64,000 bases of DNA from Colwellia sp. D2M02. GTDB taxonomy: Bacteria > Pseudomonadota > Gammaproteobacteria > Enterobacterales > Alteromonadaceae. The DNA is taken from positions 9,128 to 73,127 of the forward strand of contig NZ_JAHKPW010000064.1 of NCBI RefSeq assembly GCF_018860755.1, in the 5' to 3' direction. The position numbers were made by a program, and so were the translations under genes. Positions 7,192-38,041 of the stretch are shown here, in pieces. Under the pieces are notes generated by a model. It ran no database searches. It worked only from the letters and a program-made list of their open reading frames with translations, and had not been told where the DNA came from. Each line of letters starts with the position of its first letter. The stretch's first letter is position 1.

Positions 7192-7300
7192 ACTTCGACA
7201 AAGAAAAGGCAAGGCTCGCGAAAACGTGCTACGCAAAACCACCGGTCTAAGGGTTTAGTAATACTGCTAAGCCTATGACAGCGGAGTTACCTCGTTAAGG
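7188..7300 (+). ncRNA. Cyclic di-GMP-I (GEMM) riboswitch
   Basis: The segment has the hallmarks of the GEMM-I aptamer. They are an A-rich entry with AAAAGGCAAGG, a first hairpin closed by a GAAA loop, then ACGCAAAACCACCGG and TCTAAGG. After these come the second hairpin and the 3' signature GCCTATGACAGCGGAGTTACC, given here in parts. CTTAAC 7188-7193 can pair with GTTAAG 7294-7299 as P1. Family knowledge: GEMM RNAs bind c-di-GMP and control motility, adhesion and secreted-protein genes. AAAACCAC (7235-7242), part of the aptamer core, can alternatively pair with GTGGTTTT (7310-7317), which runs into a T-tract. That suggests a transcription-termination platform, but this part is inference. Confidence 0.85.
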
Positions 7301-7352: not shown

Positions 7353-7712
7353 ATGAAAAAATTATTACTAGCTTCAACCATTACAGCTTTAACATTAACG
7401 TTTACATTTAACGCACCAACAGCTCAGGCTGCTAATATAGCTCAAAGCTTATGCGACTATGTCGCTGCTGATGACAAAAAACGTATGCGTTCTTTTTTAA
7501 AGTCTCATAAATTAAAAATACGTAGTATTTTTGATGGTGTTCAATGTAATGGCCAGAACTTGTTAGAATTTGCAGCAACGTCAGGCTCAGTAGAGACTGG
7601 CTCTTTGATGATTTCAAAATTACCAAAGAAAGTTGTATCAGCTAATTTAGCGCTTATTCAAACAGGATCACAACCGTTGATCGATGCTGCTAACGATCGT
7701 GTTAGTAGCTAA
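7353..7712 (+). CDS. Secreted DUF3718 family protein under c-di-GMP riboswitch
   Basis: This is a 119-residue exported protein. A signal peptide (Lys2-Lys3, hydrophobic core, cleavage after AQA about residue 26) precedes a small domain of the DUF3718 type. LCDYVAADDKKRMRSFLK and CNGQNLLEFAA are the recognisable blocks, with two cysteines that could form a disulfide. Function is unknown in the family. It stands alone with its own terminator at 7793-7821. The GEMM riboswitch about 50 bases upstream indicates control by c-di-GMP, so a role at the cell surface or in the sessile/motile switch is plausible but unproven. Confidence 0.85.
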   Translation: MKKLLLASTITALTLTFTFNAPTAQAANIAQSLCDYVAADDKKRMRSFLKSHKLKIRSIFDGVQCNGQNLLEFAATSGSVETGSLMISKLPKKVVSANLALIQTGSQPLIDAANDRVSS

Positions 7713-29498: not shown

Positions 29499-29858
29499 CT
29501 ATAGCACATTAAGCAACCTAAACGTTAAGAACGTAATGACTAATGTTAGTAAGGTGAAAACAAGCGCCAGTATATAATAACCTACCCGCTGCAGCTTTAT
29601 TTTATAGCGTTTAAAGCGTGAAGCTTGCTCACCCGTTAAATCAGGAAAATCATTAAATACAACCGTAATAGTATGAACAAGTAACAACCATAAACATAAA
29701 AGAAAGCTCAACACGGTATGCGTATCACCGATACTTTCACTTTTCAAAGCGGGTATAAATTGCGTAATTAAAAATACAATAAGTACCATTAGTAATAAAT
29801 GAACTAATCGCAGGTATGGATGTAATTGTTGCGCTATTTTAGAGAAAAGTATCAACAT
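29499..29858 (-). CDS. Hypothetical membrane protein, 119 residues
   Basis: I do not recognise this protein. It has about three hydrophobic helices (near 18-38, 47-67 and 90-115) with a charged loop containing LTGEQASRFKRYKIK between the second and third. This suggests an inner-membrane protein with a cytoplasmic loop. It lies between the trp terminator and the end of the CsrB-family RNA gene, on the same strand as that RNA. Confidence 0.7.
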   Translation of the reverse strand: MLILFSKIAQQLHPYLRLVHLLLMVLIVFLITQFIPALKSESIGDTHTVLSFLLCLWLLLVHTITVVFNDFPDLTGEQASRFKRYKIKLQRVGYYILALVFTLLTLVITFLTFRLLNVL

Positions 29859-29946: not shown

Positions 29947-29976
29947 AAAAAAAATGCGACTCAAAGAGTCGCATTT
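29947..29976 (-). terminator. Terminator of the CsrB-family RNA
   Basis: On the minus strand AAATGCGACTC pairs with GAGTCGCATTT around a 3-base loop (29952-29976), followed by a run of eight T. Confidence 0.95.
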
Positions 29977-30440
29977 CTGTATCTAGCTTATATAGCGCAT
30001 CCTGCACTTATATTTATATTCTCATTTCTTCCTTGAATACAATCCTTGTAACTCCTTAAATATATATCCCTAAGTAAGTCATCCTAAACTTATGTCTTCC
30101 TGACCTTGATAATCCTTATCAAGCTACATCCTTGTTTAGTTTTCCCTATAGCATCCTGCTATTAGACTTCATCCATAAAGTCTTCCTTTAAACCTGTCTC
30201 AGTTAGTTACCTAAATGAGTAAAGCATCCTGCTTTAGGTTTTCCTTAAGTTTACTATTCCGTAACATCCTTATTGCTTCGTCCCGAAGTATCCTTGGCAT
30301 CCATTTTATTGCCTTGCTTAATCATTAAGCGTTATACTTTCCAAGTATTTTCCATTTGTAGTAACAACATCCCCGTAGCTACTATCTCATCCATGACAGC
30401 GTATTGCTTTAAGGCTTCCTGCCCTATGTCTTCCTGACAT
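29947..30440 (-). ncRNA. csrB: CsrB/RsmZ-family sRNA that sequesters CsrA
   Basis: Read on the minus strand, this stretch of about 490 nt holds about 26 GGA triplets, most in loops of short hairpins. Examples are AGCAGGATGCT, AAAGCAGGATGCTTT, CTTGATAAGGATTATCAAG, ATGTCAGGAAGACAT, TACAAGGATTGTA and CTTCGGGACGAAG. CAGGAUG and AAGGA in loops are the known CsrA-binding consensus. It has no long reading frame. It ends in a strong terminator at 29947-29976. A TAATAT at 30446-30451 is a possible -10, putting the 5' end near 30440. In the family, the RNA titrates CsrA and is switched on by BarA/UvrY (GacS/GacA, VarS/VarA). The exact 5' end is inferred. Confidence 0.93.
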
Positions 30441-30606
30441 GATTAATATTACACTTAAAATTTATGGTTAGTAGTAACCAGAATAAAATTATTTAGATGT
30501 AACATAAGTGCAACTTTCAATAAAAAATAAAAAGCCTTTAAAATCATAACAGTAAATAATTAAGCTTCTATTTTACAGCGACAATTGCCATGATATCGCA
30601 CATCAC

Positions 30607-30624
30607 TGTGAGACATGTCTTACA
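30607..30624 (-). promoter_or_regulatory. GacA/UvrY-type activator box upstream of csrB
   Basis: TGTGAGACATGTCTTACA on the plus strand (TGTAAGACATGTCTCACA on the minus strand) fits the known TGTAAG-N6-CTTACA box with one mismatch. It lies about 175 bases upstream of the predicted csrB start, similar to the far-upstream UvrY site of E. coli csrB. Confidence 0.85.
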
Positions 30625-30958: not shown

Positions 30959-33900
30959 ATGAATCAGCCCCTTTACCTTAAGCGTACACTTGTTAGTGAT
31001 GACCAAAGATATACTGAGGCTAGCTTATTAAAGGCGTCTAAGTACATTATCGTTTTGGCTGAACCTGGGGCTGGTAAGACTGAACTTATAAAAAGCTTGG
31101 CTAAACAGTTAACAGTTAAAGAAGTTACAGCAAATGTATTTCGTCACAGAGCTTCTAATCAATCGAATAAAGCTCTTGTAATTGATGCTTTTGATGAGTT
31201 ATCAAAAATAGATCAATCAGGTATTTACCAATTACTTGCTAATGCTTCAGAAATTAACCCAAGTCACATAGTCATATCAAGTAGGTCCAGTGAATGGAAT
31301 ACCTCTACAACAAATATGTTTGAAGAGTTTTTTGGTAAAAAGCCTGTCATTGCTAGGCTGTGCGAATTTAATGAGTCAGAACAACAAAATATTTTTTTCC
31401 ATCATACCTCTCAAGATGATTTTGTTGAATTTAAGGCAGAAGTTACCCGATTTTCTTTAGATCCACTTTTACCTAACCCACAGTTTCTAAAGTTGTTTGC
31501 AGATGCTTATATTGAAAGTAATGGTCATTTTACGGATAAGCGCTCTATTTTCACCCAAGCCATTACTCATTTAGCGAAAGAGACTAATCAAAGTGTAAGA
31601 CCAAGCCCTAAGTTCTCAACTAAGAATAAAGTAGACATTTCATCCGAAATATTTGCAAAAATCCTATTATCCGGTTCAGAGGGAGTAGGAATCAGTGAAG
31701 TTAATGAAAGTAGGATGTACCCCATACTTGGTTCGTTATTGAACACTAGCGATTTAGATGTAAGTAGTCTTTTGGCAACACGCCTTTTTAAACCAGGAGA
31801 CAATATAGATCAGCATAGACCCGTTCATAAAATAGTTGCTGAATACTGTGCTGCTGATTACCTAGTTAAGCGTATTCTTATGCCATCAGACCCTTTAACT
31901 ATCTCTCAATGTGTGTCTATTATTGCACCTAACTTAACAGTGAGAGATGAGTTGCGTGGACTACTTGGTTGGATGGCATCCTTGGGTAATAAATTAATAG
32001 AAGAGACTATAATTGAACTTGATCCCTATGCAGTGCTAGCAAACGGGGATCCTTCTCAACTAGAACCATCATCAAAACGACTTCTATTATCAAAGTTAAA
32101 AGAAATTGAAGCTAGTGACCCTTATTTTCGACGGAATGATGCATGGCGAAAATTCAATGTTGTGGGCTTTTTTACGCATGAAGTTATAGAAGATCTCAAG
32201 CCAATTATCTCCGGTGAAAGTGATGGTAATTTACGAGATTTATTACTTGAACTATTAGCTGGAACTAAAGAATTAAAATGGCTAGAAGCAGAGTTGCGTC
32301 AGATTATTTTAGATCCTAATGAAAATAAAAACACAAGGATGTTAGCTAATACCTGTGCGCTAGGTTTGGATGCCTATGACTTTCATTCCGACTTAAAGCA
32401 TTTGATTGTAGAAGGTACATACTCTTCTTTAGCTATAGCAGCTGATATTATCAAATATTATGACCCTGAAAAGTTCACTTCTACTGAATTAGAAGACTTC
32501 TTTAATAGTTGCGCTAACTTATATCCAAGTTATAAAAAAGGTTTTGAGCGAACCATAGGGCGCCGTTACTTCATTAATGGGTTAGTGTCCTGCTTGAGTT
32601 TACAGACTACCGAAGCGCTTTTAAATTCCTTAAGCAAAGGCTTGGCTTGCACCTGCGGAAAAAGAGCGTTTGAATGTGATTGCCGAACAGGAATAAGTAA
32701 AATTATTGGTCACTTGTTAGATCGTTACTTTGAAGTAGCTAAACCACCTCATGACCCATTACAGATTTGGCAATGGGTTAAAAGTTTAAATTTTCATGGA
32801 CGAAATAGTACCCGAAAGATAGCTTCGGTAAATTATTTGCGCGAAGATAATTGCTTACGCCAAGGTATTATTACTCATGTATTTGGTGAGCTGACTGACC
32901 GTAAACAGATTTCTCAAACCAGGTGGACAAAATTCACAAGCCGAGAGTCACATGCCGGACTTGCTTTTAAAATTGAAGATTATCAGTTCATCGTCGATTT
33001 AGCGTTTGAACGTGATAATACTGAACTATGGGCGAACTTTATAGAGTTCCATAGATACCATCACCACTCAGAACACAAAGATCCTAATAACCTACGTTGT
33101 CACATGCGAAAGCAAGCACTTTTAAAGCCAAAGTTTATGGCTAAATGGGCCTCATTAAATAGACAATATGATATACAAATTAAGAATGATGATCGCCAGT
33201 GGGGCTTAAGGCATCGTAGAGGCGTTAAGCGCTATGAAAAAAAAGAGCATGCTGTTCACACTGAGAACATAAAGTACATTAATGAAAATCATGATCTAGT
33301 TGAAGGTGGTCGTCATTGGGGGTATTTAGTTCGTTTTTCAGAATGTATCCTAAACAGACCTGAGGAGATAAATAATAACTTTGGTGATGAAAATATTGTT
33401 CGAAACTCCTTGAGAAATTGTTTTGATTTTATTGAACCTGAAGTTCCTAACATACAAGAACTTGCTGTAAGAAAATGTTCACCTTATTTCTATAATATTG
33501 AAATCATAGTTGTAGCAGCTTGTATAGAAACCATGCGTTTAAATGGTAATTTAAACAGTATAAAACATTTATTCTTAGTAGCTCTGAAAACATATTTTAA
33601 CATTAGCTACTCTGGTGTTAGTGAAAATGAAATGAGTGCATTGAAAGCCGAAGTAGATCGGTTAATCTTTCCTAATGTCAATTCGGCTGAAATATTCCTT
33701 CGTCAATATGTTGAACCTCAGTTAGCAGAAATAAGTTGTACTCATCCTACTGTAGACTTACTACAATACGACAATGTATTTAACCCATTACAGGCTACCT
33801 TATCTATAGAATGGCTTAATCGTTTCGATGAACTTGGGTTGTACACATTGAGTTCGCTTTTTGAAATTGCAGCACAGCATGGTGATCGCGAAGAGTTAAA

Positions 33901-35005
33901 TAACATAATCCTTAAACGTTGTTCTCAACTATTATCAGAGTATCTTCAGCCTAAAAATCATGACTTATTTTCACAAAGATGTAAATTTTGGTTTGTTCGA
34001 GCTTGTTATTTTTTAAATCGAGAGGAGGCTGAACCTTACTTTAATTGGCTTAAATCTGATAAAGATTCAGTTTTTATATTTCATGAATATTCGAGTCGAA
34101 TGAATCGAAGCGATCATCCTCATTGGCCAGAGTTAACGTCTCTTAAGCTTGAAGCTATTCTCGAGGCCTTTTTTGATAAATGGCCGAAGGTGTATTTGCC
34201 CGGCAGTTGGGGATCAGAATACCCTCCAGAAGAAAAGGCGTATAGGTTCCTTACAGATATTATTTGGAATATAGGTAAAGATGGCCCAGATGAAGCGATA
34301 CCGGTACTTAATCGACTCTTACTAAAGTCTGATTTTTCTGATATCCATAAAAATTTAAAAAGCATACAAGCAGAACAACTGAGAAAAAAGGCATTGACAA
34401 ATTTTGAGGCTCCATCAGCCGCGAAAATAGTCGATTTATTAGATAATAATGCCGTGATTACGGTTGAAGGCTTACGACAATTAGTCATTCAAGAATTGCA
34501 AAATTATCAAAAAGAAATTGACGGTGGAGAGTTTAACGTTGCAGATCGTTACTATACTAAAGATAAATCATTAAATGATGTACATTTGGATGAGGTACGT
34601 TCAGTTCGAATTATTGCAGAGCGCCTTGACACAGTACTTAAACCTCAAAATATTACCATTATACCTGAATTTCAGACTAAAAATCAAAATAGGATTGATT
34701 TTATCGCAGCTAAAGTGATTGATGGTAAAAGAAGTTTACTTGTTATTGAAGCTAAGGGGCAGTGGCATCCTGATTTATATTCAGCAGCTTCAACTCAGCT
34801 TTATGAGCGATATTCAATTCATCATGATGCAGAGAAACAAGGGGTTTATCTTGTTATTTGGTTTGGTACCGATGTAAAAGTGGCAGCTCGTAAGGCTGGT
34901 AATATAACGACTGCAAAAGAGTTAAAAGAGTCAATTGAGAAAACATTACCTTTAGAAATAAGGGGATTTATTGATGTTTTCGTTTTAGATGTATCTCGAT
35001 CTTGA
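30959..35005 (+). CDS. Large NACHT-type NTPase with C-terminal PD-(D/E)XK-like nuclease, candidate defence protein
   Basis: This is a single 1348-residue protein. Walker A is EPGAGKT (Lys40) and Walker B is ALVIDAFDE (72-80), whose D-A-F-D-E fits the NACHT signature; IVISSRS (104-110) is a sensor-like strand. The middle is a long, mostly helical region with a CxC-x6-CxC cluster (Cys564, 566, 573, 575) that could bind zinc. The C-terminus has a nuclease-like core: Asp1247 in NRIDF, then Glu1264-x-Lys1266 in LVIEAKGQ, then QLYERY. Known NACHT/STAND defence proteins (Avs, bNACHT) use the NTPase for oligomerisation and a fused effector to kill infected cells. Here the effector is at the C-terminus and the NTPase at the very N-terminus. 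Antiphage function is inferred. No partner gene is adjacent. Confidence 0.85.
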   Translation: MNQPLYLKRTLVSDDQRYTEASLLKASKYIIVLAEPGAGKTELIKSLAKQLTVKEVTANVFRHRASNQSNKALVIDAFDELSKIDQSGIYQLLANASEINPSHIVISSRSSEWNTSTTNMFEEFFGKKPVIARLCEFNESEQQNIFFHHTSQDDFVEFKAEVTRFSLDPLLPNPQFLKLFADAYIESNGHFTDKRSIFTQAITHLAKETNQSVRPSPKFSTKNKVDISSEIFAKILLSGSEGVGISEVNESRMYPILGSLLNTSDLDVSSLLATRLFKPGDNIDQHRPVHKIVAEYCAADYLVKRILMPSDPLTISQCVSIIAPNLTVRDELRGLLGWMASLGNKLIEETIIELDPYAVLANGDPSQLEPSSKRLLLSKLKEIEASDPYFRRNDAWRKFNVVGFFTHEVIEDLKPIISGESDGNLRDLLLELLAGTKELKWLEAELRQIILDPNENKNTRMLANTCALGLDAYDFHSDLKHLIVEGTYSSLAIAADIIKYYDPEKFTSTELEDFFNSCANLYPSYKKGFERTIGRRYFINGLVSCLSLQTTEALLNSLSKGLACTCGKRAFECDCRTGISKIIGHLLDRYFEVAKPPHDPLQIWQWVKSLNFHGRNSTRKIASVNYLREDNCLRQGIITHVFGELTDRKQISQTRWTKFTSRESHAGLAFKIEDYQFIVDLAFERDNTELWANFIEFHRYHHHSEHKDPNNLRCHMRKQALLKPKFMAKWASLNRQYDIQIKNDDRQWGLRHRRGVKRYEKKEHAVHTENIKYINENHDLVEGGRHWGYLVRFSECILNRPEEINNNFGDENIVRNSLRNCFDFIEPEVPNIQELAVRKCSPYFYNIEIIVVAACIETMRLNGNLNSIKHLFLVALKTYFNISYSGVSENEMSALKAEVDRLIFPNVNSAEIFLRQYVEPQLAEISCTHPTVDLLQYDNVFNPLQATLSIEWLNRFDELGLYTLSSLFEIAAQHGDREELNNIILKRCSQLLSEYLQPKNHDLFSQRCKFWFVRACYFLNREEAEPYFNWLKSDKDSVFIFHEYSSRMNRSDHPHWPELTSLKLEAILEAFFDKWPKVYLPGSWGSEYPPEEKAYRFLTDIIWNIGKDGPDEAIPVLNRLLLKSDFSDIHKNLKSIQAEQLRKKALTNFEAPSAAKIVDLLDNNAVITVEGLRQLVIQELQNYQKEIDGGEFNVADRYYTKDKSLNDVHLDEVRSVRIIAERLDTVLKPQNITIIPEFQTKNQNRIDFIAAKVIDGKRSLLVIEAKGQWHPDLYSAASTQLYERYSIHHDAEKQGVYLVIWFGTDVKVAARKAGNITTAKELKESIEKTLPLEIRGFIDVFVLDVSRS

Positions 35006-35492
35006 GCTATTACTTTAGGCGGATTAGTATTGCCTGCTCAGTAATAGTACAATCTAATAGCATTAATTTTATCGAGAATTTTCAAGGTTTCCTCTGTGAA
35101 TTATAATAATTTAATTTAGATTTTTTCATTAATTGAATAATCTTTGAATGCATAAATAGGGCAAATCTTGCATTGAGCATGCTGAACTCGTTTTTACCAA
35201 CAACCGTTGTTCGCTCTAAGCTGCCGTTGGGAACAAAGAAGATCAATGTCCGCAATTGGCTATCAGCTGACCTAAAGAATAACCAACAGCTAACTTCCAC
35301 TAAGCGCACAAAGGCGAAGGCTTATTTATATTTCAATTTACTTATTAAAACCTAAATTTTACTAACCTCTTTCAACTACGTTCCTGCATTTAGGAAATGC
35401 ACTGAATCCCTAAAACTCATTGCACGCTAAACGAAAATAATGGTTAGTTAACAACTGTAGTAATAGAAAAACGGCTATTGGTTCTGTGAGGT
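35006..35492. other. Intergenic region, 487 bases, no convincing gene
   Basis: Overlapping short frames exist on both strands at 35082-35355 (75 and 60 codons), but neither has a good ribosome site or a family that I recognise. It could be decayed coding sequence. No clear terminator follows the large upstream gene. Confidence 0.4.
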
Positions 35493-35858
35493 TCATTGGT
35501 TATGTTTTTTATGCCAAATAATACATATTAATAACGTAATAAAGCCACTAGCATAAGTCGCATATAAAGGAAATAAAGTGGGTTTATCTTCTGGGTATGG
35601 CGAAGTACTCGATAAGATCAAAGCTGCAATAGCTCCAACAATCAACCAAGCAGTTGCTACTTTCGTTTTGTGACTAGGCGCAGTGATATAACCAGATAAA
35701 ACCACTAAAGAAGCCGCAACTGAGCCAATTATTGGTTTTTTCCAAACTCCCATAAAATCGGCTAGGATACCAGCAGCTATCGCTGAAACTATAAATGTAA
35801 TAATGACTATTACAAATGAAAAAGCAAAACCTCTTATTTGATTCATGCTCAAATCCAC
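35493..35858 (-). CDS. Hypothetical membrane protein, 121 residues
   Basis: I do not recognise this protein. It has about four hydrophobic helices (near 10-32, 41-58, 68-84 and 97-115) and few charged residues outside short loops, so an inner-membrane protein is expected. The start could be ATG 35858 or the second Met at codon 5. It lies in a stretch of small accessory membrane genes on the minus strand. Confidence 0.65.
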   Translation of the reverse strand: MDLSMNQIRGFAFSFVIVIITFIVSAIAAGILADFMGVWKKPIIGSVAASLVVLSGYITAPSHKTKVATAWLIVGAIAALILSSTSPYPEDKPTLFPLYATYASGFITLLICIIWHKKHNQ

Positions 35859-36000
35859 TAAAAATTTAATGCCTTATTATTAATACCTTATTAAGTACAA
35901 ACAATTTATTGGTTATCACCGCAAAGTGACGCTTAACTGTTAACGTCCATTTTTGTCACTTGTAGTGTGCAACTTACATCAAACCGTTGAAATACAAACA

Positions 36001-36162
36001 TTAAGACTGATGGTCTTTATTTATAAGCGTTACTGACATATAGGCTAACACAGGCAAAATTATTAGCGTTAATAGCTGCGGGGCGTCAAGAATAGCAGAT
36101 GACAAAATTGCAGAAGCCCATAATAAACTTAAATCGATACCTTTTTTATGACATTTTTTCAT
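36001..36162 (-). CDS. Small membrane protein, 53 residues
   Basis: This short frame begins MKKCHKKGIDLSLLWASAIL and ends with a basic/polar tail, with one or two hydrophobic segments between residues 10 and 45. A strong GGAGG lies 5 bases before the ATG, which is the main support for a real gene. The function is unknown. Confidence 0.7.
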   Translation of the reverse strand: MKKCHKKGIDLSLLWASAILSSAILDAPQLLTLIILPVLAYMSVTLINKDHQS

Positions 36163-36293
36163 CACAGCCTCCAGTTAACCGTTTAAACGAAACACAGTTA
36201 TCGTAACAGATAAATTTGAAATAACATAAAACACTTCTATCTGCACTTATTAACGCCTACTTTAAACTCTTGTTGCGTGTTTATTTATTGCTA

Positions 36294-36485
36294 TTATTTA
36301 AGTCTTGTAATACCAAGTATAACGGCAATTACGCCACCAGCCATTCCCGCCCAAGCCTCAATAGGCGTATCCCCACTTAATGCTCGAGTAACTTGTGAGC
36401 TAGCAGAATCATAAATATTGTAACCCCACATAGCTAATGCAACCCCCACAATAATAAGGACTATTCCAATAATTTTGTTATTCAT
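36294..36485 (-). CDS. DUF3185 family small membrane protein
   Basis: This 63-residue protein has two membrane helices: IIGIVLIIVGVALAMWGY at the start and a C-terminal MAGGVIAVILGITRL. The arrangement, with a polar SASSQVTRALSGD loop between, fits the DUF3185 family. The function is unknown. AGGAGT lies before the ATG. Confidence 0.82.
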   Translation of the reverse strand: MNNKIIGIVLIIVGVALAMWGYNIYDSASSQVTRALSGDTPIEAWAGMAGGVIAVILGITRLK

Positions 36486-36677
36486 CTCAACTCCTAAAAT
36501 TTATAAGTGTGCAATTGAGTGCTCCAACTGACTAAACACATAGCTCGCCCCTAAGCGGCTAAAATTAGCCAATTGCATTTACCCTGCTGAATTACTTGCT
36601 AGCCGTTTTTACAAATACTCCCGAAAACAACTAACTGTTATTGCTCTAACTAATAGTCACCTAGTTTTTCTGAAAAA

Positions 36678-37298
36678 TTATGAAAATAACATTTTGAGCA
36701 ATGAAGTACTTTCATCCATTTGATTTAATGATGTTAACCAACACAGTGCGCTTATGTTTATGATAACCGTTAACCAAAAAACAAACCTAAATGTAGCCTT
36801 TTTAGATTTATGCCTAAGGGTTTGCTGTGCAATAGCAGCTCCTGGCCAGCCGCCAGCCAGTGCAAGCAAATGCAATGTACTTTCTGGAGTGCGCCAAGCG
36901 CCCCTTTTTGCTTTGTTTTTATCATGCGCATATGAAACAAAGCACAGCGTACTCGCGCCTAAATAAAGTAATACTAAATTTATTGGTAAGTAGCCAAAAA
37001 TTAACGCAACTAAGATAGTCCCTAAAAATAAAACGGCTAAATAAATTGAAAACTTATTCACATGTTTTTCTGCATGACTTGCGGGCTTTTCGCCTGCAAA
37101 AGTCGCCTTATCAGCGCAGTAACGCCCTTGTTTATCTTTCGCTATCGAAAATGTGAGAATGTCATTAACTTGAGGCGTGCGTTTTTTATTTGAAAACGCA
37201 CTTTTATGAATGAAAACATGATCGCCACCACCATTAGGTACAATAAAGCCAAAGCACTTGTCTTCGCTCCATTTTAGTAGCTTGCCTGTTAAACACAT
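36678..37298 (-). CDS. Cold-shock domain plus DUF1294 membrane protein
   Basis: This 206-residue fusion has an N-terminal cold-shock (OB-fold) domain at about residues 4-68, with KCFGFIVPNGGGDHVFIHKS as the RNA-binding face. After a linker come about four helices of DUF1294 (SYAHDKNKAKRGAWRTPE, LALAGGWPGA). The pairing of these domains is common in marine gammaproteobacteria. The role is unknown, perhaps membrane-anchored nucleic-acid binding. Confidence 0.9.
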   Translation of the reverse strand: MCLTGKLLKWSEDKCFGFIVPNGGGDHVFIHKSAFSNKKRTPQVNDILTFSIAKDKQGRYCADKATFAGEKPASHAEKHVNKFSIYLAVLFLGTILVALIFGYLPINLVLLYLGASTLCFVSYAHDKNKAKRGAWRTPESTLHLLALAGGWPGAAIAQQTLRHKSKKATFRFVFWLTVIINISALCWLTSLNQMDESTSLLKMLFS

Positions 37299-37360
37299 AA
37301 GTTACTTCGATAACTAACGATGAAAAACATAATGAACTTGTCTTTTGCTGTTTAAGTAAC

Positions 37361-38041
37361 TTATTGTACTAACTCGTTATTACGATAATGTACCATGACA
37401 GAGCCAGAGACATTACCAACAGTTACTTCTTTAATGACCTCATAACCAACATTTTCGAAAAATGCTTTAAACTTACCTGAGGTAGCATAAACAGCAACAC
37501 CTTCGCTATCAGTATGCTCGTCAAGTACAGTATTTACCGCAGCCATTAAGTAATGACCAAAACCGTGTTGCTGATGTAACGGGTGCACCGCAATAAATGA
37601 CAATAAATGAAAGGTTTTTAATGGCACAGCTTCGAGCACTGTTTGTTCTTTTTGCATCATTTGTTTGGTACTAAAGTAACCAGCACTTAGTAACATTTTT
37701 AAACGCCAATGCCAAAAGCGATTAACGCTAAGTGACTCATCTGGACTATTTAAACAAGCAACACCAACCATAGTGTCACCTAAATATAAACCGACCATGG
37801 GTTGCTTTGCTTGCCAAAAGGCGTTTAATTCTTCTCGAATTGCCGCGCGTAAACGCTGCTCGTAGTCTTCTTTATCACTATTGAATATATCAAGAAAAAC
37901 AGGGTCATCATGGTACGCTTGGTATAAAAGCGATGCAGCAAACTTTAAGTCTTCAGCTTTTAAGTAACTCGCTTTTACATCAACACTTTCACTGTCAGCA
38001 TTGTTGCTTATAACACTTGCTGGTGATTCCATTTCTGTCAT
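37361..38041 (-). CDS. GNAT family N-acetyltransferase
   Basis: This 226-residue protein has a GNAT fold. VAVHPLHQQHGFGHYLMAAV (abbreviated motif: HPLHQQHGFG) is the acetyl-CoA loop, and VAVYATSGKFKAFFENVGYEV is the final strand-helix region, given in part. The acceptor substrate is unknown. AGGAG 5 bases upstream supports the first ATG. It follows a terminator, so it has its own promoter. Confidence 0.85.
   Translation of the reverse strand: MTEMESPASVISNNADSESVDVKASYLKAEDLKFAASLLYQAYHDDPVFLDIFNSDKEDYEQRLRAAIREELNAFWQAKQPMVGLYLGDTMVGVACLNSPDESLSVNRFWHWRLKMLLSAGYFSTKQMMQKEQTVLEAVPLKTFHLLSFIAVHPLHQQHGFGHYLMAAVNTVLDEHTDSEGVAVYATSGKFKAFFENVGYEVIKEVTVGNVSGSVMVHYRNNELVQ

Follow-up and report, generated by a model that had tools for sequence, protein, structure and literature searches.

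The minus-strand locus at positions 29947 to 30440 of a 64,000-nucleotide (nt) stretch of DNA from Colwellia sp. D2M02, hereafter called the window, is with a probability of about 0.96 the csrB gene of the Colwellia species, encoding a UvrY-activated RNA that consists of GGA hairpins and would act as a sponge of CsrA. This identification, which agrees with the family assignment in a preliminary description of the DNA, is based on the promoter layout, on relatives present throughout the genus, on covarying hairpins at the 5′ end, and on the presence of CsrA, UvrY, and BarA in the same genome. The genus Colwellia, which has been investigated for its life in cold and deep-sea habitats, thereby gains its likely main CsrA antagonist, which is overlooked when the Rfam threshold is applied. 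Computational surveys of gammaproteobacterial Csr RNAs exist and may already include a csrB from Colwellia. The RNA gene and its structural elements are the following:

29947..30440, minus strand: csrB non-coding RNA gene, 494 nt with 26 GGA motifs, predicted transcript ends; supported by GGA controls, fold, RF00018, and 44 units of the genus
30426..30440, minus strand: first GGA hairpin, ATGTC-AGGAA-GACAT
30411..30425, minus strand: second GGA hairpin, AGGGC-AGGAA-GCCTT, in which relatives show paired changes
29950..29978, minus strand: intrinsic terminator stem-loop with a 13-pair stem, followed by a T run

Read from 30440 to 29947, the minus strand contains 26 GGA motifs, 16 of them as AGGA, in line with the approximately 26 sites in about 490 nt noted previously. 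In 1000 dinucleotide-preserving shuffles of csrB, the mean number of GGA motifs was 13.9 (standard deviation 2.6) and the maximum was 23. Within the window, segments of 494 nt contained on average 2.5 GGA motifs (12,702 segments in 10-base steps on both strands, the feature included), and the richest segment outside csrB contained eight. The predicted folding energy of csrB was −118.5 kcal/mol compared to a mean of −91.8 kcal/mol for shuffled sequences (z = −5.3), and none of 100 shuffles reached a value as low. As is characteristic of CsrB-type RNAs, many GGA motifs are predicted to be exposed in hairpin loops, the mean unpaired probability in the predicted ensemble being 0.84 for GGA bases and 0.42 for all csrB bases. 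The earlier picture of a chain of hairpins with GGA loops holds for most sites, 21 of the 26 being flanked by a stem of at least three pairs and 16 by a stem of at least four, but not for all of them: the stems at ten sites have at most three pairs, five of these only two, and the predicted ensemble shows the GGA at 30055 as largely paired. The gene also has the non-coding character and the intrinsic terminator of the CsrB type. The longest open reading frame (ORF) in sense direction comprises at most 32 amino acids (aa) with ATG, GTG, or TTG as start codon, whereas antisense ORFs reach up to 54 aa. The absence of a reading frame and the clean terminator were thus both confirmed, and the start previously proposed at 30440 fits the position of the inferred -10 hexamer, the end at 29947 that of the T run.

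To describe the relatives, we compared the genomes of the genus. DNA similar to csrB was present in all 37 of them, the genome of strain D2M02 included, and weakly in two of 24 other genomes. The 5′ motif of csrB was found on 24 named contigs, of which 23 are labelled Colwellia; the remaining one (L078, JAIXPH010000048.1) carries a Colwellia-type motif in a metagenome-assembled genome labelled Rhodobacteraceae and is perhaps a misbinned contig. Forty-six units had both a UvrY box (see below) and an RNA start. Two of these were dropped, namely L034, for which the script found no terminator, and copy 2 of L040, which is located at a contig end, so that 44 complete units remained, which come from 37 loci and represent 35 of the 37 genomes. 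This set does not include L074-L076 or the loci L041, L052, L053, and L054, which are truncated at contig ends. Stems of at least four pairs flanked 58% of the 1246 GGA motifs in the 44 units (last 35 nt excluded); shuffling all other bases gave 31%, and non-GGA positions reached 27%. Among the 44 sequences of the first two hairpins, 36 of them distinct, the proportion of paired cells was 99.1%, compared to 37.5-52% in slid controls. Fifteen cells were changed on both sides, and this number as well as the covariation score were each reached by none of 500 shuffles, while double changes at three pairs, as observed here, were reached by four of 500. All double changes fall in helix 2. The window copy has G-C in the 5′ hairpins where 33 of the 36 distinct rows have A-U.

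The following elements were identified upstream of csrB, the latter two from a promoter alignment of the 46 units:

30607..30624, minus strand: UvrY/GacA box TGTAAGACATGTCTCACA, an 18-bp palindrome at -184 to -167 with one mismatch to TGTAAGN6CTTACA
30593..30602, minus strand: half-site-like element TGTGCGATAT just 3′ of the box; the genus consensus is TGTGAGATAT
30446..30451, minus strand: inferred -10 hexamer TAATAT; the genus consensus is TATTAT

An 18-bp UvrY/GacA inverted repeat far upstream of the gene is a trait of the CsrB type and is present in the window with a single mismatch. In all 46 units the box starts 175-186 bp 5′ of the RNA start, and it has no mismatch in 26 units, one in 14, and two in six. 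This spacing is not a blind result, since the boxes were chosen by their position upstream of each GGA cluster and the RNA start was sought 140-230 bases past the box. In the annotated MG1655 record, csrB of E. coli has the sequence TGTGAGAGATCTCTTACA at -191, which likewise shows one mismatch to the consensus. According to the available text of PMC4682653, TGTGAGAGATCTCTTACA is the UvrY-bound repeat of E. coli csrB, centred at -183/-182, and a partially conserved TGTAGGAGA is located 5 bp downstream of it; the TGTGAGATAT element of Colwellia is placed similarly.

The genome of strain D2M02 encodes the CsrA, UvrY, and BarA proteins that accompany a CsrB-type RNA. CsrA is specified by a single gene (65 aa) and scores above its cut-offs. 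UvrY is 63% identical to the E. coli protein and reaches 373 bits at an NCBIfam cut-off of 280, and the ORF following uvrY appears to encode UvrC, an arrangement also present in E. coli. BarA shows 42% identity over residues 3-917 of 918. The best candidate for CsrD is L156, a protein of 642 aa with 22% identity (97/436), for which CsrD was the best NCBIfam model with 222 bits at a cut-off of 663, closely followed by LapD with 207 bits.

UvrY activation and CsrA sequestration in Colwellia are proposed by analogy to the CsrB family, for which PMC7652899 and PMC4682653 served as sources, the former for the general mechanism. UvrY phosphorylated by the kinase BarA would bind the palindrome at -184 and switch on csrB transcription. 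The RNA would fold into a string of GGA hairpins able to bind many CsrA dimers, and the sequestration of CsrA would free its mRNA targets. Decay would probably be initiated by an RNase E cut near a conserved AAGCUAG in front of the terminator. With E. coli CsrB (RF00018) the Colwellia RNA shares the GGA hairpins, the intrinsic terminator, the partners CsrA, UvrY, and BarA, and the far-upstream UvrY palindrome, starting at -184 instead of -191. It differs in its gene neighborhood, in a score below the Rfam threshold, and in size, the E. coli RNA measuring 369 nt with 22 GGA motifs, so that the description as larger than E. coli CsrB is correct.

Several results weigh against the assignment to csrB. 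Transcription and CsrA binding are predictions. The Rfam scan suggested in the preliminary description returned RF00018 as the best family (40.6 bits, E value 1.7e-9 in a search of 1101 bases, model span 1-356), but the score lies below the gathering score of 71, and at the gathering threshold a c-di-GMP riboswitch was the only match in the window. At E ≤ 0.001, RF00018 gave four matches in three of 20 loci of the genus, all of them under the threshold, and the locus of the window (L002) was not among these. In an order-wide scan with stricter filters, in which 67 of 197 genomes exceeded the threshold and 108 matched at E ≤ 0.001, the D2M02 genome (G000) gave no RF00018 match. A convincing -35 hexamer was not seen in the csrB promoter. 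The box pattern is common in the genome, with 164 forward matches at up to two mismatches compared to 106 for a reversed control; therefore the box alone is weak evidence and it is its position that counts. In the 5′ hairpins, the changes in helix 1 are one-sided only, and additional pair types were not unusually numerous, 99 of 500 shuffles reaching as many. The genomic context is also variable. In the window, csrB lies downstream of the trp genes, the last of which is trpA (Pfam Trp_syntA), in convergent orientation. Among the 41 loci of relatives (L032-L072), 13 have trpA and a GNAT gene on opposite sides of csrB, while the other 28 show one or neither of them, partly due to contig ends; three of these 28, L039, L042, and L045, group with the window copy in a promoter tree, although with weak support. 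As the RF00018 score remains under 71, threshold-based annotation misses csrB of Colwellia, and the name CsrB rests on the layout and the relatives rather than on Rfam membership.

The 44 units vary in length from 313 to 1185 nt and in GGA number from 15 to 68, with medians of 533.5 nt and 26 GGA motifs. More than 26 motifs are present in 21 units, exactly 26 in four including that of the window, and fewer in 19, showing that the csrB of the window is ordinary in kind and of average size for the genus. The proposal of a high-capacity sponge was therefore rejected on the basis of this distribution, and a similar number, 25, is given for Pf1 of Pseudoalteromonas fuliginea in the available text of PMC11882849, with 21 and nine for Pf2 and Pf3. 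By their description, Pf1-3 resemble the RNAs of Colwellia in that they are intergenic Csr RNAs with multiple GGA motifs and originate from a marine gammaproteobacterium; the word Colwellia is absent from the main text of that article, and in the accessible part of PMC5471319 the genus is named only as a comparison genome.

One possibility is that a GGA-rich RNA is indeed transcribed but acts in another way, e.g., by base-pairing or via a small peptide, CsrA binding being incidental. Such a role could draw on the short ORFs mentioned above and on the fact that the best-conserved stretch at the 3′ end is a heptamer without GGA. However, across the almost four-fold range in length the GGA density stays steady at 4.2-6.1 per 100 nt, which suits a chain of protein sites more than an RNA that acts by base-pairing or coding, making this explanation very improbable. 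Still less credible is a csrB copy that has degenerated or fallen silent next to an inserted region with a STAND-like NTPase: although at least 11 of the 37 genomes have two copies and that of D2M02 has one, and although genes at 30959-37298 intervene between csrB and the GNAT gene, the box, -10 region, 5′ hairpins, heptamer, and terminator are all intact, the GGA number equals the genus median, and the copy is the only csrB found in the genome by DNA similarity and RF00018 (E ≤ 10). Five loci at other UvrY-box matches with no or one mismatch had at most six GGA motifs per 300 nt compared to 19 in csrB, further one-mismatch sites being outside this search. A csrB2 remnant at 35000-37450 was considered and rejected, as this region contains no GGA cluster, also when the minus strand is read.

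For the CsrB sponge, the genus thus offers a natural series from 15 to 68 GGA motifs that is useful to test site number against expression in CsrA titration. Some relatives carry a csrB more than twice as long as that of the window. In L047 (matching C. marinimaniae MTCD1; G020:C10:89500-99000) it comprises 1185 nt with 68 GGA motifs and 4.4 copies of a 147-bp tandem repeat, and in L049 (matching Colwellia sp. TT2012; G002:C103:475000-484500) 1028 nt with 53 GGA motifs and 3.3 copies of a 147-bp tandem repeat, both lengths being derived from draft assemblies and from the first terminator that the script detected. The repeats are located inside one inferred transcription unit each; the copy of the window contains no internal tandem repeats. 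When clusters with gaps of at most 45 nt were measured, the csrB of the window gave 435 nt with 26 GGA motifs, the largest cluster of L047 863 nt with 55, and the largest one among 30 non-Colwellia loci of the order-wide scan 613 nt with 43. Outside the genus, sizes cover these 30 loci and nine loci from other genera. A Csr RNA longer than the Colwellia giants was not found described in the accessible portions of the open-licence literature searched. Where two copies are present in a genome, some are arranged in tandem, as are the rsmX copies of Pseudomonas, another case in which a gene for a CsrA/RsmA-binding RNA has been duplicated in tandem; the rsmX copies are much shorter, with about 110 nt and six GGA motifs each according to the available text of PMC7911923. 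In another genus of the order, five CsrB matches follow one another at intervals of about 0.7 kb (G044:C1:4533806-4536939).

Besides the repeat-grown giants, an invariant motif at the position where decay starts in E. coli is a lead worth keeping:

29983..29989, minus strand: AAGCTAG, between the last GGA hairpin and the terminator, putative RNase E/decay site, present in 44/44 units

Every unit has this heptamer within its final 45 nt, at a distance of 38-43 nt from the end, and no other 7-mer lacking GG is common to all 44. The last GGA hairpin is at most 17 nt away from it in 42 units. In other genera of the family, AGCTAG is found at the same place in three of eight GGA clusters (nine loci), whereas csrB of E. 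coli lacks CTAG and hence AAGCTAG. For the E. coli RNA, the available text of PMC5027483 describes the segment directly upstream of the terminator as a necessary RNase E cleavage site, which CsrA shields by binding at two adjacent sites and which becomes accessible through CsrD. By its position, AAGCUAG might be the counterpart of this site. Against a role in decay speaks that a plain RNase E site does not need strict sequence conservation, that the predicted accessibility of the heptamer is modest, and that ATAAGCTAGNTA is present at ten places in the D2M02 genome. The unpaired probability of the heptamer averaged 0.59, compared to 0.435 in the final 160 nt, and exceeded 0.7 in only 11 of the 44 units, which gives weak support for a clearly single-stranded motif. 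Neither is AAGCTAG by itself specific for csrB, as 111 copies were counted in the 399,624 bases of the fetched loci (both strands, csrB included), and AAGCTAGTTATA with up to two mismatches was found 12 times in the window compared to 14.3 expected by chance and is thus no commoner. We tentatively propose, as an idea that is rather unlikely to hold in full, that AAGCUAG is a sequence-specific decay switch at which RNase E, directed by a CsrD-like protein, initiates the turnover of CsrB in Colwellia and some relatives, and that Colwellia tunes sponge capacity through gain and loss of the 147-bp GGA repeats, up to 68 sites in a single RNA.

The genes that separate csrB from the GNAT gene in the window include one at 30959-35005 (plus strand) for a STAND/NACHT-like NTPase of 1348 aa, whose Pfam matches are all below the cut-off. 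It had no match in the relatives' loci at an E value of 1e-8 and is possibly a defence gene, PADLOC giving a weak PtuA match only. For the 119-aa neighbour of csrB at 29499-29858, 174 pattern matches were obtained in the genome contigs, none of them a confirmed relative. The protein encoded at 36678-37298 (minus strand) joins a cold-shock domain to DUF1294. The riboswitch detected in the window, of the cyclic di-GMP-I (c-di-GMP-I) type, is located at 7198-7294 on the plus strand (61.8 bits), 5′ of a 119-aa ORF at 7353.
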